Assembly (NCBI GenBank): GCA_019352035.1
Contig: JABBNZ010000004.1
Location: forward strand, 36,193 to 100,192
Direction of reading: 5' to 3'
Length of the DNA stretch: 64,000 nt
From: Pseudomonadota bacterium
Lineage (GTDB): Bacteria; Pseudomonadota; Gammaproteobacteria; Steroidobacterales; Steroidobacteraceae
This document shows, piece by piece, positions 35,589 through 52,174 of the stretch. Position 1 is the first letter of the stretch; every line of letters begins with the position of its first letter. A program made the position numbers and the translations under genes. The notes beneath the pieces were generated by a model. That model was not told the origin of the DNA. It was given only the letters and a program-made list of their open reading frames with translations, and ran no database searches.

Positions 35589-36764
35589 TCAGGCGCTGCG
35601 ATAGAGCTTGGTCATCACGAACTCGTGATGGCCCAGCGCCTCGGCGCAGGTGTAGCGCCCGTTCGCCGTCTGCACGATCGCCTCGATCAGCGCATCCCCC
35701 GCCTGAGCGATGGTCATCTCACGGCGCACGATGGCCGAGACATCCACGTCGATGTGCTCGCTCATGGTGCGCACGGTGCGCGGATTGCCGCTGATCTTGA
35801 TGACCGGCATGATCGGATTGCCGATGATGTTGCCCTGGCCGGTCGGGAAGCAGTGCACCACGTAGCCGGCCGCGGCCTGCAGCGTGCAGCACTCCGCCGC
35901 GGCGGAGGAGGTGTCCATGAAGTACAGGCCCGGTCCGCGCGCCGGCGCCTCGGCCGGCTGCAGCACGTCGATGAAGCTCACGCGCTTGCCGATCTTCTCG
36001 AGATTGCCGAGCGCCTTCTCCTCGATGGTGGTCAGGCCGCCCGCGATGTTGCCCTTGGTGGGCTGGCTGTCGGAGAGGTCGGAGGTCTTGTGGGCCTCGA
36101 TGACATCGTTCTGATACGCCGTCCAGGTGCGCATGAACTTCTCGGCGATCTCGGGGCTCGCGGCGCGGGCGGCCGCGAGGTGCTCGGCGCCGGTGAGCTC
36201 GGAGGTCTCGCCGAAGCAGCCGTACAGGCCCGCGGGGATGAGCTTGTCGTACATGTTGCCCACGGTCGGGCAGGAGGCGAGCCCGGTCGTAGTGTCGCTT
36301 TCGCCGCATTTCGCGGCCACCCACAGCTCCGCGAGCGGGAGTTCCTGTCGGACCTGACCGGTGGCGAAATGGACGAACTCCTTCGCCTTGCGCGACGCCG
36401 CGGCGACGGTCGCAATGTCGCCGTTGCCCTCGATCGAGAAGCCCGCGACGGGCTTGCCCGTCGCGGCGATGCCATCGACCACGCGCTGGGTCCACTGCGG
36501 CTCGATGCCGATGACGATGCAGGCCGCGACGTTCGGGTTGGCGCCCGTGCCGATCATCGTGCGGAAGTGCAGGTCCAGATCCTCGCCGAACTGCAGCCGG
36601 CCGTAGGCGTGGGGCAGGGCGATGGCGCCCTTGATGTGAGCGGCGACAGCCTCGCACGCCGCGTTGGAGATATCGTCGAGGGGCAGGATGGCGACGTGGT
36701 TGCGCACGCCGATGCGGCCGTTCTCGCGGCGATAACCCCAGATGGTCCGGTTCACAGTTGCCAT
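35589..36764 (-). CDS. suyB: (R)-sulfolactate sulfo-lyase large subunit (UxaA-family lyase)
   Basis: The 391-residue protein is a UxaA/GarD-type iron-dependent lyase. [40 protein letters not shown] and [24 protein letters not shown] correspond to family metal/substrate blocks. Altronate and galactarate dehydratases are usually one longer chain. Here the SAF-type domain is a separate 96-aa gene 4 nt upstream, exactly the SuyA/SuyB arrangement. SuyAB splits (R)-sulfolactate into pyruvate and sulfite, cleaving the C-S bond. The downstream comC- and slcC-like genes support this over sugar-acid dehydration. Confidence 0.85.
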
Positions 36765-36768
36765 GATC

Positions 36769-37059
36769 TCACCAGCGCTTCGTCTTCAGATTGTGGGTGT
36801 GCACGTGATCGCCGCGGCGGATCGGCGCGACGACTTTGCCGATGTCCTGGCCGTACTTGATCACCGAATCGCCGACGGCAAGGTCCCGCAACGCGACCTT
36901 GTGGCCGATCGGCACGTCCTGGTTGCACACGGCGCGAATTTCACTGTTATCCTCGGTCACGACACCCAGGATGTCGGGTCCGGCGGTGAGATTCTCGACC
37001 ACGACCACGCCGACGTTGTCGCGGTGGTCATGGACGAGCAATTGAGGCTGTCTCGGCAT
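36769..37059 (-). CDS. suyA: (R)-sulfolactate sulfo-lyase small subunit (SAF domain)
   Basis: A 96-residue SAF-domain protein ([27 protein letters not shown]...). [26 protein letters not shown] is the conserved core seen at the N-terminus of altronate dehydratases and in SuyA. First gene of the minus-strand operon, 4 nt before suyB. Its start is 53 bp from the divergent dehydratase gene, with a 19-bp palindromic operator between them. Confidence 0.85.
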
Positions 37060-37084: not shown

Positions 37085-37103
37085 TCTTATATAAGATATA
37101 AGA
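37085..37103. promoter_or_regulatory. Palindromic operator 1 of the SQ regulon
   Basis: TCTTATATAAGATATAAGA has perfect 8-bp arms around an AAG spacer. It sits in the 53-bp divergent gap, 9 bp before the dehydratase ATG and 25 bp from the suyA start, so bound protein would cover both initiation regions. The same 19-mer recurs before the sulfoquinovosidase and TonB-receptor genes and nowhere else that I saw. Confidence 0.8.
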
Positions 37104-37112
37104 TATCGGAAT

Positions 37113-38846
37113 ATGGCAGACAGCACAAGGCTTCCGCTGCGCAGTGCCCGCTGGTTCGAGCGCAACGACATGCGCGGCTTCGCCCACCGCCAGCGGATGC
37201 AGCAGATGGGGCTGCGCCGCGAGGAATTCCTCGGCCGTCCGGTCATCGCGATCATCAATACGTGGAGCGACATGAGTCCGTGCCACGCGCACCTGCGTGA
37301 GCGCGCCGAGGCGGTGAAGCGCGGTGTCCTGCTCGCCGGCGGCTACCCCGCGGAGCTGCCGGCGCTCTCGGTAGGGGAGGTCATGGTCAAGCCCTCGACC
37401 ATGCTCTACCGGAACTTCCTCGCCATGGAGACCGAGGAGCTCCTGCGCTCGCATCCGGTGGATGGGGCGGTGCTGCTCGGGGGGTGCGACAAATCGATTC
37501 CCGGCATGCTCATGGGCGCGGCCAGCATGGACCTGCCGGCCATCATCTGCCCGGCCGGGCCGATGTCGAACGGACAGTGGCGCGGCGTGCGTACCGGTGC
37601 AGGGACGCACACGAAGAAGTACTGGGACGAGCTGCGGGCGGGAAACATCACCGCCGATGATTGGATCGAGCTCGAGTCGCGCATGACGCGCTCCATCGGC
37701 ACCTGCAACACCATGGGCACCGCATCGACCCTGAGCGCGATCGCGGAGGCGCTCGGCATGACCTTGGGCGGCGCCTCCTCGATCCCGGCGGCCGATTCCG
37801 GGCACGTGCGCATGGCGTCCGCATGCGGCGCGCGCATCGTGGCCATGGTCCGCGAGGATCTGCGGCCTTCGCGCATTCTGTCAGCGGCGGCATTCAGGAA
37901 CGCCGCCGCGGTGTACATGGCGCTCGGCGGCTCGACCAACGCGGCCATCCATCTCATCGCGATGGCGGGGCGGGCCGGCGTCGAGATGTCGCTGGATGAC
38001 CTTGCCGCAATCGCGCGCGAGATTCCGGTCTGCGCCAATCTCTTTCCCTCGGGCGATCGGCTCATGGAGGACTTCTTCTTCGCCGGGGGCCTGCCGGCGC
38101 TCCTCGCCAAGATCGCGGCCCGGCTCGATCTCGGCTGCCTCACCGTGGAAGGCCGCTCGCTCGGTGCCGTCATCGCCGGCGCGCAGTGTCACGACGACAC
38201 GATCATCCGTGGCCTGGACGATCCTGTCGTGCCGTTAAGCCGCGGCCGCACGCTCGATGTGCTGCGCGGCAATCTCTGTCCCGACGGCGCGGTCCTCAAA
38301 TCGAGCGCCGCCGATCCGCGGCTGATGCGCCACGAGGGCGCCGCGCTGGTATTCGATTCGCACGCCGAGCTCTCGGCGCGCATCGACGACCCGGCACTGC
38401 CCGTGGACGAGAGCACCGTCCTGGTGTTGCGCAACGCCGGGCCCGTCGGCGCGCCGGGGATGCCCGAATGGGGCAATCTGCCGATTCCGCGCAAGCTGCT
38501 CGCGCGCGGCGTGCGCGACATGGTCAGGCTTTGCGACGGCCGCATGAGCGGCACCCACTATGGCTGCTGCATCGTCCACGCCGCTCCGGAGTCGGCGATC
38601 GGCGGTCCGCTCGCGCTCTTGAAGACCGGCGACCGTGTCCGGCTGGACGTGCCCGCCGGCCGCCTGGACATGTTGGTGTCCGAGGAGGAGATCGCTGCCC
38701 GCCGCAGCGCCTGGCGCCCGCCGGCGCGGGAATACCTGCGCTCGTACGCGGCGCTGTACCAGGCGCACGTCACGCAGGCGCCGCAGGGCTGTGATTTCGA
38801 CTTCCTCACCGGACGCGCTCCCACCCCGGAGCCGCCGATTTTCTGA
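37113..38846 (+). CDS. 6-deoxy-6-sulfogluconate dehydratase (IlvD/Edd family)
   Basis: The 577-residue protein is an iron-sulfur dehydratase. It has the cysteine cluster ligands in LLGGCDKSIPGMLMG and SIGTCNTMGTASTLSA, PAIICPAGPMSNGQWRG, and CDGRMSGTHYGCCIVHAAPE near the C-terminus. The length fits sugar-acid dehydratases of the IlvD/Edd family. In the sulfo-ED pathway this class turns 6-deoxy-6-sulfogluconate into 2-keto-3,6-dideoxy-6-sulfogluconate (KDSG). First gene of the five-gene plus-strand operon, beside operator 1. Xylonate/arabinonate-type dehydration is the alternative if read without context. Confidence 0.87.
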   Translation: MADSTRLPLRSARWFERNDMRGFAHRQRMQQMGLRREEFLGRPVIAIINTWSDMSPCHAHLRERAEAVKRGVLLAGGYPAELPALSVGEVMVKPSTMLYRNFLAMETEELLRSHPVDGAVLLGGCDKSIPGMLMGAASMDLPAIICPAGPMSNGQWRGVRTGAGTHTKKYWDELRAGNITADDWIELESRMTRSIGTCNTMGTASTLSAIAEALGMTLGGASSIPAADSGHVRMASACGARIVAMVREDLRPSRILSAAAFRNAAAVYMALGGSTNAAIHLIAMAGRAGVEMSLDDLAAIAREIPVCANLFPSGDRLMEDFFFAGGLPALLAKIAARLDLGCLTVEGRSLGAVIAGAQCHDDTIIRGLDDPVVPLSRGRTLDVLRGNLCPDGAVLKSSAADPRLMRHEGAALVFDSHAELSARIDDPALPVDESTVLVLRNAGPVGAPGMPEWGNLPIPRKLLARGVRDMVRLCDGRMSGTHYGCCIVHAAPESAIGGPLALLKTGDRVRLDVPAGRLDMLVSEEEIAARRSAWRPPAREYLRSYAALYQAHVTQAPQGCDFDFLTGRAPTPEPPIF

Positions 38847-38863
38847 CACGGGACCCTGACGCC

Positions 38864-39661
38864 ATGACAGTGAATGCCTTCAAAGCGGCCGTGCTCGATG
38901 CCCGTGTCCGCCCCGCGATCGGCTCCTGGCTGATGTCCGCCTCGGCCGCCGTGGCGGAAGCCATGGGGCATTGCGGATTCGACTTCCTGGTCATCGACAT
39001 GGAGCACAGTCCGCTGCACATCGCCAACACGATCGACCTGCTGCGAGCGCTCGCAGGCACGCGGGCAACGCCGCTGGTGCGCCTCGCGGGCAATGATCAG
39101 GTCACGGTGAAGCAGGTGCTCGATGCGGGCGCCACGAGCCTGATGTTTCCATTCATTCAGACGGCCGAGCAGGCACGGGCGGCCGTGTCGTACACGCGCT
39201 ATCCGCCCGCGGGCGTGCGCGGTGTGGCCGCCATGCATCGCGCCTCGCGATACGGGCACGCTCCCGATTACCTGCGGACGGCGAACGAACGGATCGCCGT
39301 CGTGATTCAGTTGGAGACGCCCGAGGCGATAGAGCGGCTGGAGGAGATTGCGGCGGTGCCCGGGGTCGACTCCCTCTTCGTGGGCCCGGGCGACCTGGCG
39401 GCGGCTCTGGGGCACATCGGCGATCTCGGACACGATGAGGTTCAGAAGCTGATCGCGCAAGCGGCCGCCCGCGCGCGCGCGGCAGGCAAACCCATAGGCA
39501 TCGTCGGCGGCAATCCGCAGATGGTGCGGCGGTTCCTCGAGTACGGCTACACCTGGAGCGCTGTCAGCTCGGATCTGGCGATGCTCACCGGCAGGGCCGC
39601 CGAGTGGCTGCAGACTTTGAGTGAGCGCGCCGGCGCGCCCGCGGGCTCCGCTCCTTATTGA
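38864..39661 (+). CDS. KDSG aldolase (HpcH/HpaI class II aldolase)
   Basis: The 265-residue protein has HpcH/HpaI signatures. DFLVIDMEHSPLH carries the catalytic His, VKQVLDAGATSLMFPFIQTAEQA is typical of the family, and the metal ligands lie in VIQLETPEAIE (Glu) and FVGPGDLAAALG (Asp). Such aldolases cleave 2-keto-3-deoxy acids to pyruvate and an aldehyde. In this cluster the aldehyde would be 3-sulfolactaldehyde. It starts 17 nt after the dehydratase gene. Confidence 0.87.
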   Translation: MTVNAFKAAVLDARVRPAIGSWLMSASAAVAEAMGHCGFDFLVIDMEHSPLHIANTIDLLRALAGTRATPLVRLAGNDQVTVKQVLDAGATSLMFPFIQTAEQARAAVSYTRYPPAGVRGVAAMHRASRYGHAPDYLRTANERIAVVIQLETPEAIERLEEIAAVPGVDSLFVGPGDLAAALGHIGDLGHDEVQKLIAQAAARARAAGKPIGIVGGNPQMVRRFLEYGYTWSAVSSDLAMLTGRAAEWLQTLSERAGAPAGSAPY

Positions 39662-39664
39662 GGG

Positions 39665-40567
39665 ATGACCCCGGCAGGACTCATCGCGCTCACCGCCGGC
39701 GCCTCGAGCGCGGTGATCGATCCACGTCTGGGCGGCGCATTGCTCGACTTGAGCCATGCCGGGGAGCCTGTCCTGCGACGCGCCTCGGAGGAGGCGCTGC
39801 GGACGCTGGGCGTACGTGCGGCCGCTTGCTATCCGCTATTGCCCTACGCCAATCGCATCGCCGACGGCCAGCTGCCTGCGGCCGGACGCACCTTCACGCT
39901 GCGGGCCAATTTCCCACCCGAGCCGCATGCGGTGCACGGACTCGGTTGGCAGCGTCCCTGGGAGGTCGTGCGCGCGGAGGCGTCCATGGCAGAGTTGATC
40001 CTGCAATACGAGGCTGACACGCCTGCGGACTGGCCGTTCGCGTTCGAGGCGCGGCAGTCCTTCGAGCTCGATGCGAGCGGACTCGCGATCGCGCTGTCGC
40101 TGACCAACCGGGACGTCTCGGCATGGCCGGCGGGCCTTGGCCTGCACCCCAACTTCCCGCTGCGCACGGGGGCGACTCTGCAGTTCGAGGCCGCTGGTGC
40201 TTGGTCCAACGGACCCGATCACCTACCCGCGGATCCAGTCTGCGGTGCCGTCTGGGATTTCACCAACGCCCGGCCCGTCGCGGCACTCGCGCTCGATCAC
40301 GACTTTCACGGCTGGCGCGGTCAGGCTCGCATCGGTACCGGCACCGGCTTCGGCTCCGCCGGCGCGATCCGCGTCTCGGCCAGTGAGGTGTTCTCGGTGC
40401 TGAGGGTGTTCACTGCGGCGGGAAGAGGATTCTTCGCGGTGGAGCCGATGACCCACATCACGGATGCCGTGCATCGCCCGGCGATCGCAGGGTCGGGGTA
40501 TCGGGTGCTGCAGCCCGGTGAGACGCTCACCGGCACCGTCGCGATCATGCTGGAGGAGGCCGAGTGA
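39665..40567 (+). CDS. Aldose 1-epimerase, probable sulfoquinovose mutarotase
   Basis: The 300-residue galactose-mutarotase-fold protein has the catalytic His in GLGLHPNFPLR, the Glu in FAVEPMTHITDA, and YPLLPYANRIADGQL. Equivalent mutarotases (YihR type) in SQ clusters interconvert SQ anomers so that the alpha-anomer released by the glycosidase can be oxidised. It follows the aldolase stop by 3 nt and ends in a GTGA overlap with the lactonase gene. Confidence 0.87.
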   Translation: MTPAGLIALTAGASSAVIDPRLGGALLDLSHAGEPVLRRASEEALRTLGVRAAACYPLLPYANRIADGQLPAAGRTFTLRANFPPEPHAVHGLGWQRPWEVVRAEASMAELILQYEADTPADWPFAFEARQSFELDASGLAIALSLTNRDVSAWPAGLGLHPNFPLRTGATLQFEAAGAWSNGPDHLPADPVCGAVWDFTNARPVAALALDHDFHGWRGQARIGTGTGFGSAGAIRVSASEVFSVLRVFTAAGRGFFAVEPMTHITDAVHRPAIAGSGYRVLQPGETLTGTVAIMLEEAE

Positions 40568-41433
40568 GCCGCTTCGAGCTCATCCATCCCGCCGCATGCC
40601 GGCTCGGCGAGTGTCCGGTGTGGCTTGCCGATGTCGGGCAACTGCTGTTCGTGGACGTGACCGGCCGGCGCCTGCACCGCTTCGCGCCCGCCTCGGGCAC
40701 CCTCACGACCGCCGCCACCGAGGAAGATATCGGATTCGTGGCACCGGCGCGCTCCGGCGGCCTCATTGCCGGTCTGCGCAGCGGCGTATGGCTGCTCGAA
40801 GATGACGGGCGCAAACGGCGCCTGCTGGCGCGAAACCCGGGCGATGCGCGCACCCTGCGCTTCAACGATGGCGGCATCGACCCGCGCGGGCGGCTGCTGA
40901 TCGGGACCATCGACGAGACGAAGCGCGAGGGGCGTGCCGGGCTGTACCGGCTCGACGCCGACGGACTGGCCGAGGTCGCTTCCGGCCTCATGACCTCCAA
41001 CGGCGTCGCGTTCTCTCCGGACGGCCGCAGGCTCTATCACTCCGACACGCCGAGGTTCGTCATCTACGAGCGCGATTACCGTCCCGACACCGGTGAGGTC
41101 GGGGAGCGGCGCATCTTTGCCCGCCTCGATCCGCAGGCTGCGGACCGCGGCCGGCCGGACGGCGCGGCAGTCGATCGTGCCGGGGACTACTGGTCCGCGC
41201 TCTACGAGGGCTCGCGTGTCAATCGTTATGATGCCAGCGGCAGCCTGGTCGCCGAATATCCGCTGCCGGTGCGCTCTCCGACCATGCCGGCCTTCGGCGA
41301 TGCGGACCTGAAGACCCTCTATGTCACCACCGCGCAGGCCGCCGACGGGTCCGGGGGCGGACTGTATGCGCTGCGTGTGGAGATACCCGGCCTCGCTCAC
41401 CAGCCGTTCGACGACGGGGGCTTTCAATCATGA
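40564..41433 (+). CDS. Sulfogluconolactonase (SMP-30/gluconolactonase family)
   Basis: The 289-residue six-bladed beta-propeller has the metal-site motifs RLGECPVWL (Glu), RFNDGGIDPRGRLLIGTID (Asn/Asp), TSNGVAFSPDGRRLYHSDT and DGAAVDRAGDYW. In sulfo-ED it hydrolyses the 6-deoxy-6-sulfogluconolactone produced by SQ dehydrogenase. The GTG start overlaps the mutarotase stop, and the stop overlaps the next ATG (ATGA), so translation of the three genes is coupled. Confidence 0.87.
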   Translation: MSRFELIHPAACRLGECPVWLADVGQLLFVDVTGRRLHRFAPASGTLTTAATEEDIGFVAPARSGGLIAGLRSGVWLLEDDGRKRRLLARNPGDARTLRFNDGGIDPRGRLLIGTIDETKREGRAGLYRLDADGLAEVASGLMTSNGVAFSPDGRRLYHSDTPRFVIYERDYRPDTGEVGERRIFARLDPQAADRGRPDGAAVDRAGDYWSALYEGSRVNRYDASGSLVAEYPLPVRSPTMPAFGDADLKTLYVTTAQAADGSGGGLYALRVEIPGLAHQPFDDGGFQS

Positions 41434-42197
41434 CCGCCGACGCCTATTCCAGCGTGCGCTATCACTCATTGCGCGGACGCTCCGTGCTCATCACCGGCGG
41501 CGCCTCGGGCATCGGCGCCGAGCTGGTCCGCGCCTTTGCCGCGCAGGAGGCGCGCGTCGTCTTCCTCGATGTCGATCGGGAGCATGGTGAGCCGCACGCG
41601 CAGGCCACCGGCAGCCGCTTCCTGCCGTGCGACCTGCTCGATATCGATGCGCTGCGCGCGGTGGTCGCCCAGGTCGAAGCCGAGCAGGGCGGCATCGACG
41701 TGCTGGTGAACAACGCCGGACGTGACGACCGTCAGCCCCTGGCGGCGATCGAGCCGGCCGACTGGCGCCGCATGCTGGCCCTCAACGTCGATCATCAATT
41801 CTTCGCCGCGCAGGCGGTGGCCGCCGGCATGAGCCGGCGCGGGCACGGCTCGATCGTCATGCTGGGCTCGGTGTCCTGGATGCGCGGACGCCCAGGGATG
41901 GCCGGGTATACGACCTCGAAGGCGGCCATCAATGGGCTGACCCGGACGCTGGCGCGCGAGTTGGGTCCAGCCGGTATCCGGGTCAACTGCATCGTGCCCG
42001 GCGCCATTCTGACCGAGCGTCAGCGCGCCTTGTGGCTGACGCCGCAGCTCGATGCGGAATTCATCAATCTGCAGGCGCTGAAATTCCGGCTCACGCCCGA
42101 GCACGTGGCGCGCATGGCGCTGTATCTGGGCTCGGACGAGAGTGCCGGCTGCACCGGCGCGAATTTCATGGTCGACGCCGGCCTGACCCAGAACTGA
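41430..42197 (+). CDS. Sulfoquinovose dehydrogenase (SDR family)
   Basis: The 255-residue classical SDR has the cofactor motif TGGASGIG, NNAGRDD and the catalytic Ser-Tyr-Lys in SVSWMRGRPGMAGYTTSKAA. It ends CTGANFMVDAGLTQN. SDR-type SQ dehydrogenase is the entry step of the sulfo-ED pathway, giving the lactone substrate of the adjacent SMP-30 enzyme. It is the last gene of the plus operon and overlaps the lactonase gene by 4 nt. It converges on the GntR gene with only 4 nt between stops. Confidence 0.85.
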   Translation: MTADAYSSVRYHSLRGRSVLITGGASGIGAELVRAFAAQEARVVFLDVDREHGEPHAQATGSRFLPCDLLDIDALRAVVAQVEAEQGGIDVLVNNAGRDDRQPLAAIEPADWRRMLALNVDHQFFAAQAVAAGMSRRGHGSIVMLGSVSWMRGRPGMAGYTTSKAAINGLTRTLARELGPAGIRVNCIVPGAILTERQRALWLTPQLDAEFINLQALKFRLTPEHVARMALYLGSDESAGCTGANFMVDAGLTQN

Positions 42198-42201
42198 TCG
42201 C

Positions 42202-42921
42202 TCAGGTGAGGGTGATGGCGTACACGAGGTTGTCGGAGCGCACGCGGCTCAAGCGCCATTCGACCTTGCGCTCGGGCAGGCACACGGCGAGACGGTCGAT
42301 CACGAGGACGGGAGAGCCGATGTCGACCCCGATCTGCCGATGATCGTCGGCGGTGGCGAGCTGGGCGCTCAGCTCCTCGTGCGTGGTCACGATCGTGACG
42401 CCGAATTTCGCTTGATAGAGCGAGTACAGGCTGTTCGGCAGCTCGGTGATCTTCTCGATGCCTGCGAACAGATCCGCCGCCAGCACGATGAGCTCGCGGA
42501 TCGCCGGGACCCCATCGAGGAGGCGCACGCGGGAGATCTCGACGACGCGCGCCTCGCGCGCGAGCTCGAGCCGCTCGCGCTCCGGCGCGCGCGCGGCCCG
42601 CACGCGGACATTTTCGCTCCCGAGCGTGGGGCTGAGGCGTTTGCCGCCGGGGCGGGCCATCCGGAAGAAGCGGAACTGAGCGCGCTCCTGTGTGTTCTCC
42701 GCGATGAAGGTGCCCTTGCCCTGATGACGCACGAGAACCTTCTCCGCGGTGAGGGCATCCAACACCTTGCGGATGGTCCCCTGGCTGACCCCGAGCTCCC
42801 TGGCGAGATTCTGCTCGCTCGGCAGCGCTTCGCCGGGACGCCATTCGCCCTGGACCACGCGACGCACGACGATTTCGTAGACCTGGCGGTACAGGGGGCG
42901 AAATCCGGGGGTCTCGTTCAC
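42202..42921 (-). CDS. GntR-family regulator with UTRA domain, probable SQ regulon repressor
   Basis: A 239-residue HutC-subfamily GntR protein. The winged HTH (about 8-75) shows LYRQVYEIVVRRVVQGEWRPGEALPSEQNLARELGVSQGTIRKVLDALTAEKVLVRHQGKGTFI. The UTRA ligand-binding domain (about 95-235) has SRVRLLDGVPAIRELIVL and VRSDNLVYAITLT. The start is GTG. It lies between the sulfo-ED operon and the sulfoquinovosidase operon, diverging from the latter. By location it is the likely reader of the three 19-bp operators. Ligand (SQ, sulfogluconate or sulfolactate) is inference. Confidence 0.9.
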   Translation of the reverse strand: MNETPGFRPLYRQVYEIVVRRVVQGEWRPGEALPSEQNLARELGVSQGTIRKVLDALTAEKVLVRHQGKGTFIAENTQERAQFRFFRMARPGGKRLSPTLGSENVRVRAARAPERERLELAREARVVEISRVRLLDGVPAIRELIVLAADLFAGIEKITELPNSLYSLYQAKFGVTIVTTHEELSAQLATADDHRQIGVDIGSPVLVIDRLAVCLPERKVEWRLSRVRSDNLVYAITLT

Positions 42922-43041: not shown

Positions 43042-43060
43042 TCTTATATAAGATATAAGT
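43042..43060. promoter_or_regulatory. Palindromic operator 2 of the SQ regulon
   Basis: TCTTATATAAGATATAAGT matches operator 1 at 18 of 19 positions and lies 16 bp before the sulfoquinovosidase ATG, in the 155-bp gap shared with the divergent GntR gene. Confidence 0.8.
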
Positions 43061-43076: not shown

Positions 43077-45092
43077 ATGAAGATCACTGAGTTTTCCGAC
43101 GGCTTCGATCTGGCACTGGGCGATCGGGTGCTGCTGCGCCACCGCCGGGACGCACCGTGCCTCTTCATCGGCACGGGGACGGCCGATTACCGGATGACCC
43201 GGGGGCATTTCCAGGTCGAGGATTACCTCAGCGAGCGCAGGCCTCTCTGCCATGCCGAGGTGCGCCGCGAGAGCGGGGGCCTGCGGGTCGTCCTGTCGCA
43301 GTCCGCCGCATCGGCGCCCGCGCTCGAGATCGTGATCAGCGGCGAGGGCGGCCGTGCAACGCTGCGGCTCGCATGCCATGAGCCGCGGGTGAACCGCTTG
43401 TGGCTGCGGATCCCCGCCGAGGAGGGGGAGCGCATCTGGGGCGGCGGCGAGCAACTCTCGTATTTCGATCTGCGCGGCCGGCGCTTCCCGCTATGGACGT
43501 CCGAGCCCGGCGTCGGCCGCGACAAGGCGACGCTCATCACCTTCCAGGCCGACCGGACAGGTGCCGGCGGCGATTACTTCACCACCAACTACCCTCAGCC
43601 CACGTACGTTTCCTCGCGCCGGTACGCGCTGCACGTGCAGACCACCGCGTTCACGGCCTTCGATTTCCGGCACGGGGAATTCCATGAGATCGAGTCGTGG
43701 GCCATCCCGGAGCGGATCGAGCTGTGGACCGCGCAGCGGTTCACCGAGCTCGTGAGCGCTCTGTCGAGCCACTTCGGGCGCCAGCCGCCGCTGCCGGACT
43801 GGGTGCGCGCGGGCGCGATCGTGGGGCTGAAGGACGGGGAGCGCAGTTTCACGCGGCTGGAGCGGTTCGAGGCCGCCGGCGCCGCCATCTCGGGACTGTG
43901 GTGCGAGGACTGGGTCGGCGTCCGTGAGACCTCCTTCGGCACCCGGCTCTTCTGGGACTGGAAATGGAACGCCCGGCGGTATCCGGGGCTCGATCAGCGG
44001 ATTGCCGCGCTGCGCAAGCGCGGCATCCGCTTCCTCGGCTACCTCAATCCCTATCTCTGTGTCGACGGGTCCCTCTATCCGCACGCGGCCGCCCGGGACC
44101 TGCTCGTCAAGCGGCTCGATCGGGACGAGCCCTACCTGGTCGACTTCGGCGAATTCACCTGTGGCATGATGGATTTCACGCGGCCGGAGGCGCTCGAGTG
44201 GTTCGAGGAGGAAGTCATCGGCCGCAATCTCATCGACTTCGGCCTCTCGGGCTGGATGGCTGACTTCGGCGAGTACCTGCCGGTGGACGTGCGGCTCGCC
44301 TCGGGAGAGGCCGGAGCGCTCGCCCACAACGCGTGGCCGGTGCTGTGGGCGCGGGTCAATGCCGAGGCGGTCGCGCGGCGCGGCCAGACCGGCGAGGCGC
44401 TCTTCTTCATGCGCGCGGGCTTCTCCGGCGTTCAGCGGCACTGTCCGCTCCTCTGGGCCGGTGACCAATCGGTGGACTTCAGCCGCCACGACGGACTGCA
44501 GACCGTCATCTGCGCGGCGCTGTCCTCAGGGCTCCTCGGCAACGCCTATCATCACAGCGACATCGGCGGGTACACGAGTCTCTTCGGCAATGTCCGAACC
44601 GCGGAGCTGCTGCAGCGCTGGGCGGAGATGGCCGCCTTCACGGCCGTCATGCGCTCGCACGAGGGCAATCGGCCGCGCGAGAATCTGCAAATCGATGAGG
44701 ATCCGGACGTGCTTGCCCACTTCGCGCGGATGACGCGCATGCACCGCCACCTGGCGCCTTACTTTCGCGCGCTCACCGCCGAGGCCGTCACGGCGGGACT
44801 GCCGCTGCAGCGGCCGCTGTTCCTGCACTTCGAAGACGACCCGGACGCCTATGCGGATCAAACGAGCTATCTTCTCGGTGCGGATCTTCTCATCGCGCCC
44901 GTGATCGAGGCGGGCGCGGTTCGGCGGCGTGTGTACCTGCCCGCGGGCACGCGGTGGCGCCATCTCTGGAGCGGCCGGGAGCTGCCGGGCGGCGCCGAAG
45001 CGCTGATCGAGGCGCCGATCGGGCAGCCGCCGGTATTTTTCCGTGCGGACAGTCCGCACGCGGCGCTCTTCGCCGGTCTCGCCGGCTGTTGA
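43077..45092 (+). CDS. yihQ: GH31 sulfoquinovosidase
   Basis: Hydrolyses alpha-sulfoquinovosides such as sulfoquinovosyl glycerol to SQ. The 671-residue protein parallels E. coli YihQ along its whole length as I recall it: GGGEQLSYFDLRGRRFPLWTSE, FWDWKWNARRYPGLDQRI, and the C-terminal IGQPPVFFRADSPHAALFA. The nucleophile is Asp396 (GWMADFGEYLP) and the acid/base Asp463 (WAGDQSVDF). The sulfonate-recognition set of known sulfoquinovosidases is complete in its KERWY form: Lys252, Glu277, Arg290, Trp293 and Tyr499. There is no signal peptide, so it is cytoplasmic. Operator 2 lies 16 bp upstream; the next gene starts immediately after its stop codon. Confidence 0.95.
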   Translation: MKITEFSDGFDLALGDRVLLRHRRDAPCLFIGTGTADYRMTRGHFQVEDYLSERRPLCHAEVRRESGGLRVVLSQSAASAPALEIVISGEGGRATLRLACHEPRVNRLWLRIPAEEGERIWGGGEQLSYFDLRGRRFPLWTSEPGVGRDKATLITFQADRTGAGGDYFTTNYPQPTYVSSRRYALHVQTTAFTAFDFRHGEFHEIESWAIPERIELWTAQRFTELVSALSSHFGRQPPLPDWVRAGAIVGLKDGERSFTRLERFEAAGAAISGLWCEDWVGVRETSFGTRLFWDWKWNARRYPGLDQRIAALRKRGIRFLGYLNPYLCVDGSLYPHAAARDLLVKRLDRDEPYLVDFGEFTCGMMDFTRPEALEWFEEEVIGRNLIDFGLSGWMADFGEYLPVDVRLASGEAGALAHNAWPVLWARVNAEAVARRGQTGEALFFMRAGFSGVQRHCPLLWAGDQSVDFSRHDGLQTVICAALSSGLLGNAYHHSDIGGYTSLFGNVRTAELLQRWAEMAAFTAVMRSHEGNRPRENLQIDEDPDVLAHFARMTRMHRHLAPYFRALTAEAVTAGLPLQRPLFLHFEDDPDAYADQTSYLLGADLLIAPVIEAGAVRRRVYLPAGTRWRHLWSGRELPGGAEALIEAPIGQPPVFFRADSPHAALFAGLAGC

Positions 45093-46685
45093 ATGTCTGG
45101 CGCAAGCGCCAATCCCGCCGCTGCCGCTGCCCGGCCTCCCGCGCAGCCGCCGATCGATCTGGTCGTCATCGGCGGCGGCATCAATGGAGCCGGAATCGCC
45201 CGCGACGCGGCGGGGCAGGGTCTGCAAGTGCTGCTGCTCGAGCGGCGCGATCTGGCGGGGGAGACCTCTTCGGCCTCATCGAAGCTGATCCACGGCGGAC
45301 TCAGGTATCTCGAGCAGCGGGAGTTTCGCCTCGTGCGCGAGAGCCTCACGGAGCGCGAGGTGCTCTGGGCCGCCGCGCCCCACGTCATCCGGCCGCTGCG
45401 GTTCGTGCTTCCGGTCCGCAGCGGGCTGCGCAGCACCTGGCTCCTGCGTGCGGGTCTGCTCATTTATGACCATCTCGGCGGGCGCAGGCGCCTGCCGCCT
45501 ACCCGCGTGCTGCGCCGCGGCCGTGACCCGCAGCTCGATCCGCTCGATGCGCGCTACGGCCGCGCGTTCGAGTACTCCGACTGCTGGGCGGACGATGCAC
45601 GGCTGGTTGTCTTGAACGCGCTCGATGCGCACGAGCGCGGCGCGTGCATCGCAGTCGGCTGGAGTTTCATCGAGGCGCGACGTGACTCGGGCCTCTGGCG
45701 CATCGACATCGAATCGGAGCTGGGCGAGCGTCAAACGCTGCATGCGCGGGCGCTGGTGAACGCTGCGGGACCGTGGGTGGAGCAGGTGCTGGCGGGCGTG
45801 GGCGTGCCCAGCCGCAGCGCTTTGCGGCTGGTGAAGGGCAGCCACATCGTCGTGCCGCAACTCTATCCCGGCGAGCACGCCTACACGCTGCAGAGCCTCG
45901 ATGGGCGCGTCATCTTCACGATCCCGTTCCAAGGAAGATTCACGCTGATCGGCACGACCGACGTTCCCTGTGGGAGCGAGTCCCTGCCGGCGACGGTCAG
46001 CTCGGAGGAGATCGAATACCTGTGCCGCGCGGCCTCGGAGTACTTTCGCACGCCGGTGAGGCCGCAGCAGGTGGTGTGGCAGTATGCCGGCGTGCGGCCG
46101 CTCTACGACAACGGCGAGTCGAGCGCATCGACGGTGACCCGTGACTACGTGTTCGATCTGGATGCGCCCGCGGGCAGCGCACCGCTGCTTTCCGTGTTCG
46201 GCGGCAAGCTGACGACCTACCGCCGGCTCGCCGAGCATGCGCTCTCGGAGCTGCTGCCGTCCCTGAGAATCCAAGCCCGGCGGTGGACTCGCGGTGCCAC
46301 GCTCCCGGGAGGGGATCTTCCCGGTCGGGACGCTGAAGCCTTCAGCGCCGATCGGATCGCGTGCTACGCGTTCGCGCCCGCTGGGATGATCCAACGCATG
46401 TGCGCCGCCTACGGAACCCGTATTGAGCGCGTCCTCCACGGCGCGCGTCGCCTCGAAGACCTCGGACAGGAGATCGCGCCGCAGCTCTTCGAGGCGGAGC
46501 TCGAGTACCTGCGCGGCGCCGAGTGGGCTCGCGGGGGCCAAGACGTGCTGTGGCGCCGCTCGAAGCTCGGGCTCACTCTCGATAGCGGGGCCGTGCAGCG
46601 TGTCGAGCGCTGGCTCGCCGCGCATCGCGCGCCGCCCGCGATCCGCTGGCCCTCACCCCCCGGAGCGCAGCGTGCCAGCCGGTGA
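45093..46685 (+). CDS. GlpD-like FAD-dependent glycerol-3-phosphate dehydrogenase
   Basis: The 530-residue flavoprotein has the FAD motif IDLVVIGGGINGAGIARDAAGQG and the GlpD signatures LIHGGLRYLEQREFRLVRESL, LVNAAGPWVEQV, FTIPFQGRFTLIGTTDVPCG, YAGVRPLYDN and LLSVFGGKLTTYRRLAE. It starts directly at the glycosidase stop (TGAATG). Sulfoquinovosyl glycerol hydrolysis frees glycerol, so a GlpD in this operon could serve aglycone use, but no glycerol kinase is in the window. A different polyol or sugar substrate is possible. Confidence 0.88.
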   Translation: MSGASANPAAAAARPPAQPPIDLVVIGGGINGAGIARDAAGQGLQVLLLERRDLAGETSSASSKLIHGGLRYLEQREFRLVRESLTEREVLWAAAPHVIRPLRFVLPVRSGLRSTWLLRAGLLIYDHLGGRRRLPPTRVLRRGRDPQLDPLDARYGRAFEYSDCWADDARLVVLNALDAHERGACIAVGWSFIEARRDSGLWRIDIESELGERQTLHARALVNAAGPWVEQVLAGVGVPSRSALRLVKGSHIVVPQLYPGEHAYTLQSLDGRVIFTIPFQGRFTLIGTTDVPCGSESLPATVSSEEIEYLCRAASEYFRTPVRPQQVVWQYAGVRPLYDNGESSASTVTRDYVFDLDAPAGSAPLLSVFGGKLTTYRRLAEHALSELLPSLRIQARRWTRGATLPGGDLPGRDAEAFSADRIACYAFAPAGMIQRMCAAYGTRIERVLHGARRLEDLGQEIAPQLFEAELEYLRGAEWARGGQDVLWRRSKLGLTLDSGAVQRVERWLAAHRAPPAIRWPSPPGAQRASR

Positions 46686-47934
46686 GCTCGCGCGCGACGG
46701 TGTCGATGGCGCTCGAGCGGTGATGCCGCAACGGCGAACGGCCCTGCTCCTGCTGCTCGCCCTCATCGGGGTGATCAACTACGCCGACCTGCAGGCGATC
46801 GCGATCCTCAAGCCGCTCATCGAGCGCAGCGTGGGTTGGACCGATGCCGACTACGGCCGCGTCGTCGCCATGTTTCAGCTTGCGACGGCGCTGTCCTACC
46901 TCTGGGCCGGAACGGTGGTCGATCGCCTGGGCGCGAGGATGTCGATGCCCGTCGCCGTGACGGCTTTCAGCATCGCGGATGCCGCGCATGCCCTGGCGCG
47001 CACGACAGGCGGCTTCATGCTGGCCCGCATCGGGCTGGGCGCGAGCGAATCGCTCACCACGCCGGCGGTCATCCAGGCGGTCGGCGCCTACTTTGAGCCG
47101 GGACCCCGAGCGCGGGTGCTCGGCTGGGTCAACTCGGCCAACAGTCTGGGCGCCATCATCACCCCGCTGGTCATCCCCTCGGTGGCGCTCACGGTGGGCT
47201 GGCGCGCGGCGTTCGTGCTCCTTGGCGCCGTGGGCCTGCTCTGGACGGTCGCATGGGGGGTGTCGCTGCGCGGCAGTCAGCCGCTGCAGACCGGCACCGC
47301 ACGCGCGCCGAAGCCGACCCTGCGGGGGTATCTGCGCTTGCTGAGGGAGCGGGGTACCTGGGCGATCGTGGTCGGCAAGGCGCTCATCGATCAGGTCTGG
47401 TGGCTGTTGCTCTACTGGACGCCGGATCTGCTGCATCGCACGTTCCACCTGTCGGTGAGCGGCTACGGCGGCCCGCTGGCGGTGATCTATGGCGGCTCCA
47501 TGCTCGGCTCCATCGGGGGCGGGTGGGCCTCCTCCCGCCTGGTCCTGAGGGGGATGGGCGCCGTGCGCTCGCGCCTCACCGTCATGCTCGTCTGCTCGGT
47601 GATCGGACTCGCGCTGCTCGGTGTATCGCACGCGAGCGGCTTGTGGGGGGCGGTCGCGCTGCTCACGATCGGCATCACCGCCATGCAGGGGTTCTCGGTC
47701 AACATGTTCACGCTCATCACCGATGTCGTCGAGCCGGAGCGGGTCGGCACCGTCACCAGCCTGGGCGCCTTCGCCGGCAACATGGCCGGCATGGCTGTCG
47801 TGTGGCTGTGCGGTGTGCATCTGGCGGCGGGCGGCGGGTATGCGCCGTTCTTCGATTCCGCGGCGGTCTCGTTCGGACTGGCGTACGCGTGGCTGCGTCT
47901 GATGTTGCCCGGAGCCGGCGCGCGGAGCGCGTAG
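46672..47934 (+). CDS. MFS transporter, candidate SQ or SQ-glycoside importer
   Basis: An integral membrane protein with about 12 helices of the anion:cation symporter (sugar-acid transporter) type: ALIGVINYADLQAIAILKPL, the loop motif GTVVDRLGARMSM, ARIGLGASES, and FSVNMFTLITDVVEPERVGTVTSLGAFAGNMAG. I place the start at GTG 46672, with GGAG upstream and a 14-nt overlap with the GlpD gene (420 aa). The ATG at 46723 (403 aa) also works. Position inside the SQ operon suggests uptake of SQ or its glycosides; export of a sulfonate product is the alternative. Confidence 0.85.
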   Translation: MPAGELARDGVDGARAVMPQRRTALLLLLALIGVINYADLQAIAILKPLIERSVGWTDADYGRVVAMFQLATALSYLWAGTVVDRLGARMSMPVAVTAFSIADAAHALARTTGGFMLARIGLGASESLTTPAVIQAVGAYFEPGPRARVLGWVNSANSLGAIITPLVIPSVALTVGWRAAFVLLGAVGLLWTVAWGVSLRGSQPLQTGTARAPKPTLRGYLRLLRERGTWAIVVGKALIDQVWWLLLYWTPDLLHRTFHLSVSGYGGPLAVIYGGSMLGSIGGGWASSRLVLRGMGAVRSRLTVMLVCSVIGLALLGVSHASGLWGAVALLTIGITAMQGFSVNMFTLITDVVEPERVGTVTSLGAFAGNMAGMAVVWLCGVHLAAGGGYAPFFDSAAVSFGLAYAWLRLMLPGAGARSA

Positions 47935-47935
47935 C

Positions 47936-48949
47936 ATGCCGATGCAGCAGCCGATACGTTGGGGGGTGCTGGGCGCCGCGCGGATCGCCGTCAAGCACGT
48001 CCTACCGTCGTTCAGATCCGCCAGGCGCTCTGCGCTGGCGGGGATCGCCGCGCGGGATCCGGACCGGGCGCGCAGCGTCGCGTCGCGGTTCGGCATCCCA
48101 CGGACGTACGCCTCCTACGAGGAGTTGCTCGCCGACCCGGCGATCGATGCGGTTTACATCCCGCTGCCGAACGACCTGCACTCGATCTGGACACTGCGCG
48201 CGCTCGCGGCAGGCAAGCACGTCCTGTGCGAGAAGCCGATCGCGATGAGCGCGGAGCAGGCACGAGCGATCGCCGAGGCCGCGGCCCGCTGCGGCCGGCA
48301 CGTCGCAGAAGCCTACATGATCAGATTCCACCCGCAGTGGCAGCGGGCGCGCGCGCGGGTTGCCGCGGGCGATCTCGGCGAGGCCCGCGCCGTTTACGCC
48401 TGGTTCTCGTATGACAACCCGCCGGGGGACAACCTGCGCAACAGCCCCGCCCACGGCGGCGGCGCCCTCTATGACATCGGCGGCTATGCGCTGGTGGCGG
48501 CGCAGTGGCTGTTCGGCACCCGGCCGGAGCGGGTCATCGGCCTCTTCGCGCGCGATGCCGCCGAAGGAGTGGATCACCTCACGAGCGGCATGGCCGACTT
48601 CGGCGGCGGGCGGCAGCTCGTCTTCACCGTCTCGACGGCTTTGCCCCGCGTGCAGTCGGTGATGTTGTATGGAACGCGCGGCCGAATGACGATCGAGACG
48701 CCGTTCAATCCGGCGGCCGATCTGCCTACACGGCTGCTCGTGGACGACGGCCGTGATCTCTACGGAGCCGGACTCGAGGTCGAGGTCGTGGCCGCTGCCG
48801 ATCAGTATGCCCTGCAGCTGGACGCCTTCTCCGAGGCGATCGCGGCCGATCGGCAGCCGCCCTTCGGCATCGACGATGCCATCTGCAACATGCGCGCGCT
48901 GGATGCGCTCTTTCGCTCGGAGCGCTCCGGCGCCTGGGAGCGGCCTTGA
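47936..48949 (+). CDS. Gfo/Idh/MocA-family oxidoreductase
   Basis: The 337-residue protein has the N-terminal Rossmann motif WGVLGAARIAVKHVLPS, the conserved DAVYIPLPNDLH and HVLCEKPIAM (EKP), and a C-terminal dimerisation fold with GGGALYDIGGYALVAAQWLFG. Family members oxidise or reduce sugars at C1 or C3, and a branch (GH188) acts as NAD-dependent sulfoquinovosidase. In this operon it could be a second SQ-glycoside cleaving enzyme or act on 3-keto sugars made by the GMC module downstream. The start is 1 nt after the MFS stop. Confidence 0.85.
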   Translation: MPMQQPIRWGVLGAARIAVKHVLPSFRSARRSALAGIAARDPDRARSVASRFGIPRTYASYEELLADPAIDAVYIPLPNDLHSIWTLRALAAGKHVLCEKPIAMSAEQARAIAEAAARCGRHVAEAYMIRFHPQWQRARARVAAGDLGEARAVYAWFSYDNPPGDNLRNSPAHGGGALYDIGGYALVAAQWLFGTRPERVIGLFARDAAEGVDHLTSGMADFGGGRQLVFTVSTALPRVQSVMLYGTRGRMTIETPFNPAADLPTRLLVDDGRDLYGAGLEVEVVAAADQYALQLDAFSEAIAADRQPPFGIDDAICNMRALDALFRSERSGAWERP

Positions 48950-48995
48950 AGCGCGGCCCGCCTCGATCGATCCCATCCCAAGGGAGTGAGTCTCG

Positions 48996-49790
48996 ATGAT
49001 GAAGTCTCTGTGCACGTCTTTGGCGGCGCTCGCCTTCCTCAGCGCGGCGCCGGCGTTCGCCGCTTCGCGGCCGTGGCCGCCGCGCCAGCCCTGGCCACCC
49101 AATGACCTCAGCCGGCCGCAGCCGCCGCGAATGCCGGTTGCGGCAGCGCTCCTCGGCGTGCCGCCGCCGCCCGATGCGGTGGTGCTTTACGACGGCCGCG
49201 GGCTCGGGCAGTGGAATCTCGCCGCCGATCCGCGCAGCGGCTGGCACCAGTCCCGGGGCCGGATGCTGCCCGGCGGCAAGGTGTTCAACTGGCTCCTCAG
49301 CAAGCGCAGCTTCGGCAGCGTGCAGGTGCATCTGGAGTTCCGCGAGCCGGAACCGGCCGGCGGCAACGGCCAGGAGCGCGGCAACAGCGGCGTGCGGTTG
49401 ATGGGGGTCTACGAGATCCAAATCCTGGACGCCGACCACAACCAGACGTACGCCGACGGCCTCCCGGGCGCGGTGTATGGCCAGACTCCGCCCATCGCGG
49501 TGCCGGTGATGCGTCCCGGACAGTGGCAGAGCCTCGACATCCTCTTCGATGCGCCGCGCTTCCAGGGCAAGAGGCTCGTCAGGCCGCCTTACGTGACGGT
49601 GCTGCTCGATGGCATCGTCGTGCAGGATCATCAGGTGATCTTCGGCAATACCAGCGCCCACAAGGTCCCGCTCGGCTATGTGACGCGCACCGACCGCGGG
49701 CCGGTAGGGCTCCAGGACCATGGTGAGCCGAGCTCCATCGTGGCCTTCCGCAACATCTGGGTCCGGCCGCTGCATCCTCATGGCCGCTGA
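48996..49790 (+). CDS. Secreted DUF1080 (3-keto-glycoside hydrolase/lyase-like) protein
   Basis: The 264-residue protein starts with a Sec signal (MMKSLCTSLAALAFLSAAPAFA) and a proline-rich linker. The DUF1080 jelly-roll domain follows: VVLYDGRGLGQWNL, GSVQVHLEFREP, RGNSGVRLMGVYEIQILDA, WQSLDILFDAPRF and GPVGLQDHGEPSSIVAFRNIWVRPL. DUF1080 proteins cleave 3-keto-glycosides in oxidative deglycosylation pathways. GGGAG precedes the ATG. It overlaps the GMC oxidoreductase gene by 11 nt, which ties it to the enzyme expected to make its substrate. Confidence 0.85.
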   Translation: MMKSLCTSLAALAFLSAAPAFAASRPWPPRQPWPPNDLSRPQPPRMPVAAALLGVPPPPDAVVLYDGRGLGQWNLAADPRSGWHQSRGRMLPGGKVFNWLLSKRSFGSVQVHLEFREPEPAGGNGQERGNSGVRLMGVYEIQILDADHNQTYADGLPGAVYGQTPPIAVPVMRPGQWQSLDILFDAPRFQGKRLVRPPYVTVLLDGIVVQDHQVIFGNTSAHKVPLGYVTRTDRGPVGLQDHGEPSSIVAFRNIWVRPLHPHGR

Positions 49791-51474
49791 GCCGTTCGAT
49801 GTGATCGTGGTGGGCTCGGGTGCGGCCGGGGGCACTGCGGCGCACGCGCTGACGGGGGCCGGCGCCCGTGTCTGCCTGCTCGAGGCGGGCCGATCTTACG
49901 ATCCGGGACGCGAGACACCCATGTTTCAGCGGACCGCGGCGGCGCCGCTGCGGGACGCGGGCACGCCCGACAAACCGTTCGGCTTCTACGATGCGACGGT
50001 GGACGGCGGTTGGGAGTTGCCCGAGGAGCCGTTCGCGACCGCGCCAGGCACGGAGTTCCGCTGGTTCCGGGCACGGATGCTCGGAGGCCGCACCAACCAC
50101 TGGGGACGGGTCGCGCTGCGCTACGCCAACCATGACTTCAAGGCGTACTCGCGCGACGGGCTCGGCGCCGACTGGCCGTTCACCTACGATGAGTTCGCGC
50201 CCTGGTACGACCGTGCCGAGCGATTGGTGGGCGTGTTCGGCTCCAATCCCGGTCTTCCCGACCAGCCCGATTCGCCGCCGGGTTGTCTGCAGCCGCCGCC
50301 GGTGCCCCGCTCCCACGAGCTGCTCATCATGGCGGGCGGCCGCCGGCTCGGCCGGCCCGTGGTCCCGAGCCATACGGCGGTCATCACACAGCCGATCGAT
50401 GGGCGCCTCGCCTGCTTCTACGCCACTCCGTGCCTTCGCGGCTGCTCGATCCGTGCCAATTTCCAGTCCACGACGGTGCTGTTGCCGCCGGCAAGGGCGA
50501 CCGGCCGGTTGACCACCCTCACGCACGCGCAGGCTTACGAGATCGAGATGGCGCCCGACGGGCGCGCGCGCGGCGTGCATTACCTCGACCGTCTCACCCA
50601 CCGCCATCACTTCATACCGGGGCGCGCGGTGATGCTCGGCGCGAGTGCGATGGAGTCGGTGCGATTGCTCCTCAACTCCCGCAGCACGCAGTTTCCCGAC
50701 GGCATCGGCGCCGACAGCGGACTGCTCGGCCGCGGAGTCATGGACAGCACCGGCAGCAATGTCTGGGGCCAGTTTCCGCAGATGGAGAATCTGCCGCCGT
50801 TCAATGACGATGGCGTCTGGCTGCCGCACGTTTACATTCCCTGGTGGGCGTGGCCCGAGCAGCGCGCCGGCCGGCTGCCGTTCACGCGCGGCTACCATCT
50901 GGAGCTCTACGGCGGCCGGCTCGAGCCGTCGGCGGATACCTTCGATTTCCTCGACGACGTCTCGCCCCTGACCTACGGGCGCCGTCTCAAGGAAGAAGCG
51001 CAGCGCTACTACGGCAGCTTCGTGCGCCTCTCACAGCGCGGGGAGATGATCGCCCGCGAGCACAACCGGGTGCAGATCGATCCGGTGCTGCGCGACCAGT
51101 GGGGCATTCCGAGCCTGCGGTTCGATGTGCGCTTCAGCGATCAGGAGCTGCGCCAGACCGCGCACGCGCAGCAGAGCATGGCGGAGTTCATCGAGGCGGC
51201 CGGCGGCAAGCTGGTCACTCCTCTACCGCGCAATCCGGCCGAAGCGATCCTGCCTCCGGGCCGGATCATCCACGAGGTCGGCGGGGCGCGCACGGGGGTC
51301 GATCCGGCCAGATCCGTCACCGATCCGTTCGGCCGCGTCTGGGGCGTACCCAACCTCTATGTCATCGATGGGGCGGTGTTTCCGAGCAGCGCGCACAAGA
51401 ACCCCACGCTCACCATCGTCGCGTTCGCCTCGCGCGCCAGCGAGCACCTGCGCAAGGCGCTGCGTCATGCCTGA
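49780..51474 (+). CDS. GMC oxidoreductase, glucoside 3-dehydrogenase-like catalytic subunit
   Basis: From the ATG at 49780 the product is 564 residues. It has the FAD motif FDVIVVGSGAAGGTAAHALTGAGARVCLLEAG, RARMLGGRTNHWGR, and the C-terminal GMC block IHEVGGARTGVDPARSVTDPFGRVWGVPNLYVIDGAVFPSSAHKNPTLTIVAFASRASEHL, containing the active-site His and Asn. It lacks its own signal peptide; export would rely on the Tat-type small subunit encoded next, as in related gluconate and glucoside dehydrogenases. Predicted role: oxidise glycosides at C3 in the periplasm. The cytochrome subunit often found with such complexes is not in the window. Confidence 0.88.
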   Translation: MAAEPFDVIVVGSGAAGGTAAHALTGAGARVCLLEAGRSYDPGRETPMFQRTAAAPLRDAGTPDKPFGFYDATVDGGWELPEEPFATAPGTEFRWFRARMLGGRTNHWGRVALRYANHDFKAYSRDGLGADWPFTYDEFAPWYDRAERLVGVFGSNPGLPDQPDSPPGCLQPPPVPRSHELLIMAGGRRLGRPVVPSHTAVITQPIDGRLACFYATPCLRGCSIRANFQSTTVLLPPARATGRLTTLTHAQAYEIEMAPDGRARGVHYLDRLTHRHHFIPGRAVMLGASAMESVRLLLNSRSTQFPDGIGADSGLLGRGVMDSTGSNVWGQFPQMENLPPFNDDGVWLPHVYIPWWAWPEQRAGRLPFTRGYHLELYGGRLEPSADTFDFLDDVSPLTYGRRLKEEAQRYYGSFVRLSQRGEMIAREHNRVQIDPVLRDQWGIPSLRFDVRFSDQELRQTAHAQQSMAEFIEAAGGKLVTPLPRNPAEAILPPGRIIHEVGGARTGVDPARSVTDPFGRVWGVPNLYVIDGAVFPSSAHKNPTLTIVAFASRASEHLRKALRHA

Positions 51475-52155: not shown

Positions 52156-52174
52156 TCTTATATCTTATATAAGA
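52156..52174. promoter_or_regulatory. Palindromic operator 3 of the SQ regulon
   Basis: TCTTATATCTTATATAAGA on the plus strand is the reverse complement of the operator 1 sequence, with perfect 8-bp arms. It lies 29 bp before the TonB-receptor ATG, so this gene has its own promoter although it follows the same operon. Confidence 0.8.

Follow-up and report, generated by a model that had tools for sequence, protein, structure and literature searches.

A gene cluster in the DNA analysed here, a stretch of 64,000 nucleotides that we call the window, is best read as going past the cleavage of SQ glycosides, since its predicted products also include enzymes for sulfolactate racemisation and carbon-sulfur cleavage (SlcC/ComC/SuyAB) under an operator of its own. 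We assign a probability of about 0.85 to the reading in which a GH31 sulfoquinovosidase (SQase) works within an extended sulfo-ED pathway that would mineralise sulfoquinovosyl glycerol (SQGro) in one cell. Approximately ten billion tonnes of SQ are turned over annually. The sulfo-ED pathway has usually been described as the opening part of a relay between two species, in which one organism excretes sulfolactate and another removes the sulfur. The presence of a sulfoglycolytic or sulfofucolytic pathway together with a biomineralisation pathway in one bacterium was regarded as unusual in 2025 (PMC12421959). One co-regulated cluster with both halves, found in several genomes and in strain AAP38, leads to the prediction that some bacteria complete the process by themselves.

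In the proposed route, SQGro would enter through a TonB-dependent receptor and an MFS carrier, and the SQase, with D396 as nucleophile, D463 as acid/base and the sulfonate held by the KERWY residues, would release alpha-SQ and glycerol. A mutarotase, SQ dehydrogenase, lactonase, dehydratase and aldolase would yield pyruvate and sulfolactaldehyde, the latter being converted by a GabD-type dehydrogenase to (S)-sulfolactate. SlcC and ComC would invert this to (R)-sulfolactate, SuyAB would split the product into pyruvate and sulfite, and the glycerol would pass through GlpK and GlpD. The net outcome would be the conversion of SQGro to two pyruvates, triose phosphate and sulfite within one cell. 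The genes and operators concerned are listed in Table 1.

Table 1. Predicted genes and operators of the cluster, in positions of the window
Feature	Position	Strand	Basis or remark
GabD-type aldehyde dehydrogenase, candidate sulfolactaldehyde dehydrogenase	32192..33643	-	R165/R283, C289, E255 present
2-hydroxyacid dehydrogenase, SlcC-like	33640..34563	-	57-63% identity to enzymes adjoining suyAB elsewhere
Ldh_2-family sulfolactate dehydrogenase, ComC-like	34560..35576	-	
SuyB-like large subunit, (2R)-sulfolactate sulfo-lyase, GD_AH protein	35589..36764	-	
SuyA-like small subunit, (2R)-sulfolactate sulfo-lyase, 95 aa, SAF domain	36772..37059	-	
Predicted operator TCTTATATAAGATATAAGA	37085..37103	+	divergent suy/sulfo-ED promoter region
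IlvD/EDD-family sulfogluconate dehydratase (candidate)	37113..38846	+	family match
HpcH/HpaI-family KDSG aldolase (candidate)	38864..39661	+	family match and orthologues
Aldose-1-epimerase-like SQ mutarotase (candidate)	39665..40567	+	family match
SMP-30/gluconolactonase-like sulfogluconolactone lactonase (candidate)	40564..41433	+	family from sequence and position
SQ dehydrogenase (SDR)	41430..42197	+	residues numbered as in PpSQDH
GntR (HutC-like) regulator	42202..42921	-	
Predicted operator TCTTATATAAGATATAAGT	43042..43060	+	upstream of SQase
GH31 sulfoquinovosidase (SQase), KERWY type	43077..45092	+	671 aa; alignment, model
Glycerol-3-phosphate dehydrogenase GlpD	45093..46685	+	684 bits against a cut-off of 360
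MFS transporter	46738..47934	+	
Gfo/Idh oxidoreductase, sugar-3-ketoreductase-like (accessory module)	47936..48949	+	
DUF1080/3-keto-disaccharide hydrolase (accessory module)	48996..49790	+	apparent Sec signal
GMC oxidoreductase (accessory module)	49780..51474	+	
Gluconate-2-dehydrogenase subunit 3-like protein (accessory module)	51467..52096	+	twin-arginine-like leader
Predicted operator TCTTATATCTTATATAAGA	52156..52174	+	upstream of TonB receptor
TonB-dependent receptor, candidate sulfoquinovoside receptor	52204..54531	+	

The GH31 enzyme, its residues and its fold

The best reading of the GH31 gene product is a retaining alpha-sulfoquinovosidase, an activity predicted from both sequence and model. 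In phmmer searches it aligned over its full length with the A. tumefaciens enzyme AtSQase (PDB 5ohs/5ohy; 978-980 bits), and K252, E277, R290, W293 and Y499 (codons 43830-43832, 43905-43907, 43944-43946, 43953-43955 and 44571-44573) fell in the same columns as the AtSQase KERWY set K245, E270, R283, W286 and Y491. D396 and D463 (codons 44262-44264 and 44463-44465) were aligned to AtSQase D388 and D455, and D463 is taken as the acid/base position because the aligned 5ohs chain is a D455N mutant. The first-pass annotation, whose span of 43821-44580 covers just the middle of the gene, had put these five residues at the sulfonate-binding sites and both catalytic Asp residues in place, with misalignment as the risk; every named position matches AtSQase in the full-length alignment, and the assignment holds. 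It had also called the enzyme KERWY rather than the QQRWY variant of E. coli, and this agrees with the alignment to E. coli YihQ (5aed; 690 bits), where the partners of K252 and E277 are Gln262 and Gln288. The Q/Q pair is also present at these positions in B. megaterium 8r56 and E. rectale 6pnr. The roles of the residues and the names KERWY and QQRWY are established for this enzyme family.

The set K-E-R-W-D-E-D-Y is invariant in 81/81 sequences (the SQase and 80 relatives of at least 60% identity), in an alignment in which 184 of 662 columns are invariant, and we consider that its occurrence in the aligned SQase is not chance. Because the set is invariant in all of these near relatives, KERWY is the rule in this SQase branch; for the same reason its conservation was rejected as a sign of something special, and the SQase, taken alone, does not stand out from its group.

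We compared an AlphaFold2 model, built from 27 sequences (pLDDT 84, pTM 0.86), with the PDB by Foldseek. The first 23 hits were all sulfoquinovosidases at TM 0.92-0.95 and the next-ranked GH31 enzymes reached TM 0.72 or less, so that the fold comparison, like the alignment, groups the enzyme with sulfoquinovosidases and away from neutral-sugar GH31 enzymes. A neutral-sugar enzyme, alpha-glucosidase or alpha-xylosidase, might be suspected because the best NCBIfam model is named "alpha-glucosidase" (PRK10426); this, however, is the older name of YihQ. With YicI-type and other GH31 enzymes at 140 bits or less in phmmer, against 690-980 for sulfoquinovosidases, with the fold comparison just given and with KERWY and both Asp residues intact, a neutral-sugar identity is rejected by sequence and fold and has next to no probability left. 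The A. tumefaciens SQase (5ohs, 5ohy, 7ofx) resembles the window enzyme in sharing ~61% identity by structure comparison, KERWY and both catalytic Asp residues; the SQ pathway of A. tumefaciens is sulfo-SMO, however, whereas the window SQase sits in a sulfo-ED and sulfolactate-lyase cluster. A second GH31 protein is encoded elsewhere in the genome, in a ~1009 aa open frame (contig C19:7522-8937).

The putative sulfo-ED and sulfolactate arms and their predicted operator

The SQase had been proposed to anchor the substrate of the whole cluster, and the neighbouring SDR protein supports this, as its best solved relative is the P. putida SQ dehydrogenase (9gwu; 292 bits, the next at 212). In PpSQDH, D99, R101 and Q198 contact sugar hydroxyls, R152 and the water-bridged R154 contact the sulfonate, and N119-S147-Y160-K164 form the tetrad (PMC12133307). 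All nine (D99, R101, N119, S147, R152, R154, Y160, K164 and Q198) are kept by the SDR in the same numbering, so that, with the SQase, two unrelated folds in the cluster carry SQ-specific residues. Genes for a lactonase, an IlvD/EDD dehydratase, an HpcH/HpaI aldolase and an SLA dehydrogenase, all of putative specificity, lie together in the cluster, as judged by family matches and by orthologues in loci linked to an SQase. The lactonase gave no NCBIfam match and has an orthologue in most sulfo-ED loci, and the dehydratase shares 70-75% identity with those encoded next to SQases in rhizobial sulfo-ED loci, although its NCBIfam score of 877, close to the L-arabinonate dehydratase cut-off of 882, counts against the sulfogluconate reading.

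The sugar served by the cluster could in principle be sulfofucose or another sulfosugar rather than SQ, as the published SuyAB-coupled ED pathway, demonstrated in Paracoccus, is for sulfofucose (PMC12421959). S. mexicanum, named in the same paper, has an operator, a GntR gene and SuyAB homologues as in the window. The cluster dehydratase, however, belongs to IlvD/EDD, the type that acts in SQ degradation, and no sulfogalactonate dehydratase of the sulfofucolytic PF13378/PF02746 type was found in the cluster. The SQases of E. coli and A. tumefaciens are inactive on PNP-alpha-sulfofucoside (PMC12421959), and the SQ-contact set of the dehydrogenase is complete, which together make a sulfosugar other than SQ very unlikely.

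The minus strand carries, divergently from the sulfo-ED genes, what we read as a putative series of SuyA, SuyB, ComC, SlcC and SLA dehydrogenase. The SuyB homologue shares 59-78% identity with 13 plasmid-borne proteins and 39% or less with everything else. Its relative in C. pinatubonensis adjoins hpsN/hpsO, that in Methylobacterium has SlcC/ComC-like genes, TauE, a molybdopterin oxidoreductase and a sulfate exporter as neighbours, and that in Paracoccus seriniphilus lies beside a hisD/SDR/ADH trio and SlcC/ComC-like genes. In the tree it belongs to the sulfolactate sulfo-lyase clade (support 100/100), apart from proteins near uxaC, sugar-acid and unrelated genes; its catalysis is predicted. 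The names of the two dehydrogenases rest mostly on position, because the ComC-like protein scores 181 bits with the NCBIfam sulfolactate dehydrogenase model NF040650, far under its 500-bit cut-off, and because the aldehyde dehydrogenase residues R165, R283, C289 and E255 (PMC10599462) are common to ordinary succinate-semialdehyde dehydrogenase. The best aldehyde dehydrogenase match does not adjoin SlcC in loci L012 and L013. SuyB and GabD also come from families that include other substrates, which counts against the extended reading.

An ordinary sulfo-ED pathway would stop at sulfolactate and its export, leaving the UxaA-family pair for some other sugar acid such as altronate or galactarate. 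This has in its favour that SuyB/SuyA fall in the galactarate/altronate dehydratase family and that the cultured sulfo-ED strains in the published work examined all export SL or DHPS. We nevertheless consider it improbable, as SuyB shares 66-78% identity with proteins encoded next to hpsNO or SlcC/ComC-like genes and no more than 39% with other UxaA hydrolases, including those near uxaC, while the SlcC- and ComC-like genes adjoin SuyB and one operator serves both arms. An altronate or galactarate dehydratase identity for the pair was rejected by the identity gap, the tree and the neighbours.

A 19-bp predicted operator, TCTTATAT-N3-ATATAAGA, precedes each of the three transcription units. Even when three mismatches are allowed, it occurs in only these three places in the whole 4.5-Mb genome, where a reversed-motif control gave no match. 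All three positions are kept in loci L008, L010, L011 and L125, and L012 and L013, to which two of them apply, have both. The operators lie 10-30 bases upstream of the start codons, which fits a repressor; GntR would repress the three units through them and be released by a pathway intermediate, most likely sulfolactate. GntR relatives at 35-50% identity are encoded with suyAB in Methylobacterium, S. mexicanum, Paracoccus, Caballeronia, Salinarimonas, Jiella, Aurantimonas and further lineages, most of which also have versions of the motif with 1-3 mismatches upstream of suyA. The simplest history would be one in which the sulfo-ED genes came under the control of a sulfolactate regulator. It should be noted that GntR and the operator are also found near the SQase in L016/L017, so that the role of GntR may not be confined to suy genes. 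The operator offers a simple handle for finding further such clusters and for probing the ligand of the regulator.

Glycerol, uptake, the accessory module and sulfite

GlpD follows directly after the SQase and adjoins it in most relatives, and GlpK lies between the GlpD and MFS genes in L008, downstream in L012 and on another contig in the window genome; this placement points to SQGro as the natural substrate. The TonB-dependent receptor gene is directly upstream of the SQase in L124. Other SQ clusters have an ABC importer, whereas the window cluster has a TonB receptor and an MFS carrier instead.

An accessory module (47936-52096), common only to the nearest relatives L008, L010 and L011, separates the SQase operon from the TonB receptor. 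Its GMC protein is nearest to the catalytic subunits of FAD-GDH and fructose dehydrogenase, and DUF1080 proteins have been linked to 3-ketoglycoside hydrolysis (PMC9007349). The module resembles the LacABC and DUF1080 3-ketoglycoside pathway in its GMC dehydrogenase, small subunit with an export signal and DUF1080 protein, but differs in lying beside sulfosugar genes under a sulfosugar operator (PMC9007349). The Gfo/Idh protein was rejected as a second sulfoquinovosidase of family GH188 (8qc2/8qc8), as its score to SqgA 8qc2 is 48.9 bits, whereas 4had gives 215.5 and a sugar 3-ketoreductase 127. Beside GH31 hydrolysis, the module might provide another route, oxidative and periplasmic, in which sulfoquinovosides are opened by way of a 3-keto-sulfoquinovoside, both feeding the extended sulfo-ED pathway under a sulfolactate-sensing regulator, although we hold this to be speculative and rather doubtful. 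Its parts would be the GMC dehydrogenase with a Tat-exported small subunit, the secreted DUF1080 protein, the cytosolic Gfo/Idh reductase and the TonB receptor. If true, 3-keto opening would be a mechanism not known for sulfolipids.

Candidates for the sulfite outlet, four TauE-family and two PF00174 proteins, are encoded elsewhere in the genome. The two PF00174 molybdopterin proteins (L092 and L093, contigs C72 and C177) are each followed by a membrane partner and the second resembles MsrPQ; no clear SorA sulfite dehydrogenase was recognised among them.

Distribution, known systems and other features of the window

Among 49 genomes of the same genus the SQase is present in nine and SuyB in 11; all nine SQase genomes also have SuyB (9/9), with both genes on one contig in seven of them. 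Random placement would give p ~3e-8 under an assumption of independence, however, the genomes are related and the co-occurrence is therefore offered as descriptive only, with no formal test. Of 32 named loci in which the sulfo-ED trio is complete, SuyB was found in the fetched flanks of just five, those of the closest MAGs, and the other 27 have no SuyAB within 10 kb of the SQase. We rejected the view that alphaproteobacterial sulfo-ED bacteria all lack SuyAB, as at genome level the 50 genomes checked include eight with SuyB that lie outside the window's own kin. Two of the eight, Niveispirillum sp. (L128) and strain AAP38 (L127), both Alphaproteobacteria, have the same fused divergon as the window, in which SuyA-SuyB-ComC lie against SGdh-aldolase-mutarotase-lactonase-SQDH, and the other six have a separate suy cluster. 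AAP38 is a named strain and might be culturable. G010 (L122) and G015 (L121) have SuyAB next to GlpD and GlpK, without sulfo-ED genes and with no SQase at the cut-off used, and in L122 a YeiH-like exporter follows SuyB; these are possibly reduced clusters, or clusters for another glycerol-linked sulfonate.

The window cluster shares with the known sulfo-ED pathway the SQ dehydrogenase, lactonase, dehydratase, aldolase, GabD-type SLA dehydrogenase and SQase. Known sulfo-ED organisms excrete sulfolactate, however, whereas this cluster is predicted to continue to sulfite through its SlcC, ComC and SuyAB homologues. The sulfofucolytic pathway of Paracoccus wurundjeri is alike in joining an ED-type sulfosugar route to SlcC/ComC/SuyAB in one bacterium, but differs in its sugar, its dehydratase family and its ABC importer, with no GH31 SQase and no SLA dehydrogenase identified (PMC12421959). 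SuyAB is also part of an SQ cluster, with predicted complete use of SQ carbon, in the extended sulfo-TAL clusters of Thermotogae and Chloroflexi (PMC9594981) and in the GH188 sulfo-EMP-like clusters of Actinobacteria, which include a sulfolactate sulfo-lyase (PMC11465081). Their upstream parts are TAL and EMP-like, the second with another SQase family, whereas that of the window is ED with GH31. The hpsN-hpsO-suyA-suyB cluster of Cupriavidus pinatubonensis is similar in its SuyB (66% identical) and two-subunit layout, but consumes C3 sulfonates in a species that cannot use SQ (PMC9594981). No SQ sulfo-ED version of the extended (SuyAB) pathway was found in the open-licence papers searched, and within that literature the predicted joining of sulfo-ED to SuyAB is new among extended sulfoglycolysis clusters.

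Two further genes of the window lie outside the cluster. On the plus strand, 19141-22413 encodes the large subunit of a ribonucleotide reductase, which carries a LAGLIDADG intein (Pfam Ribonuc_red_lgC, LAGLIDADG_3 and Intein_splicing), and the product of 24281-25654 (also plus strand) combines SIR2-like with TIR domains, a pairing known from anti-phage defence proteins.
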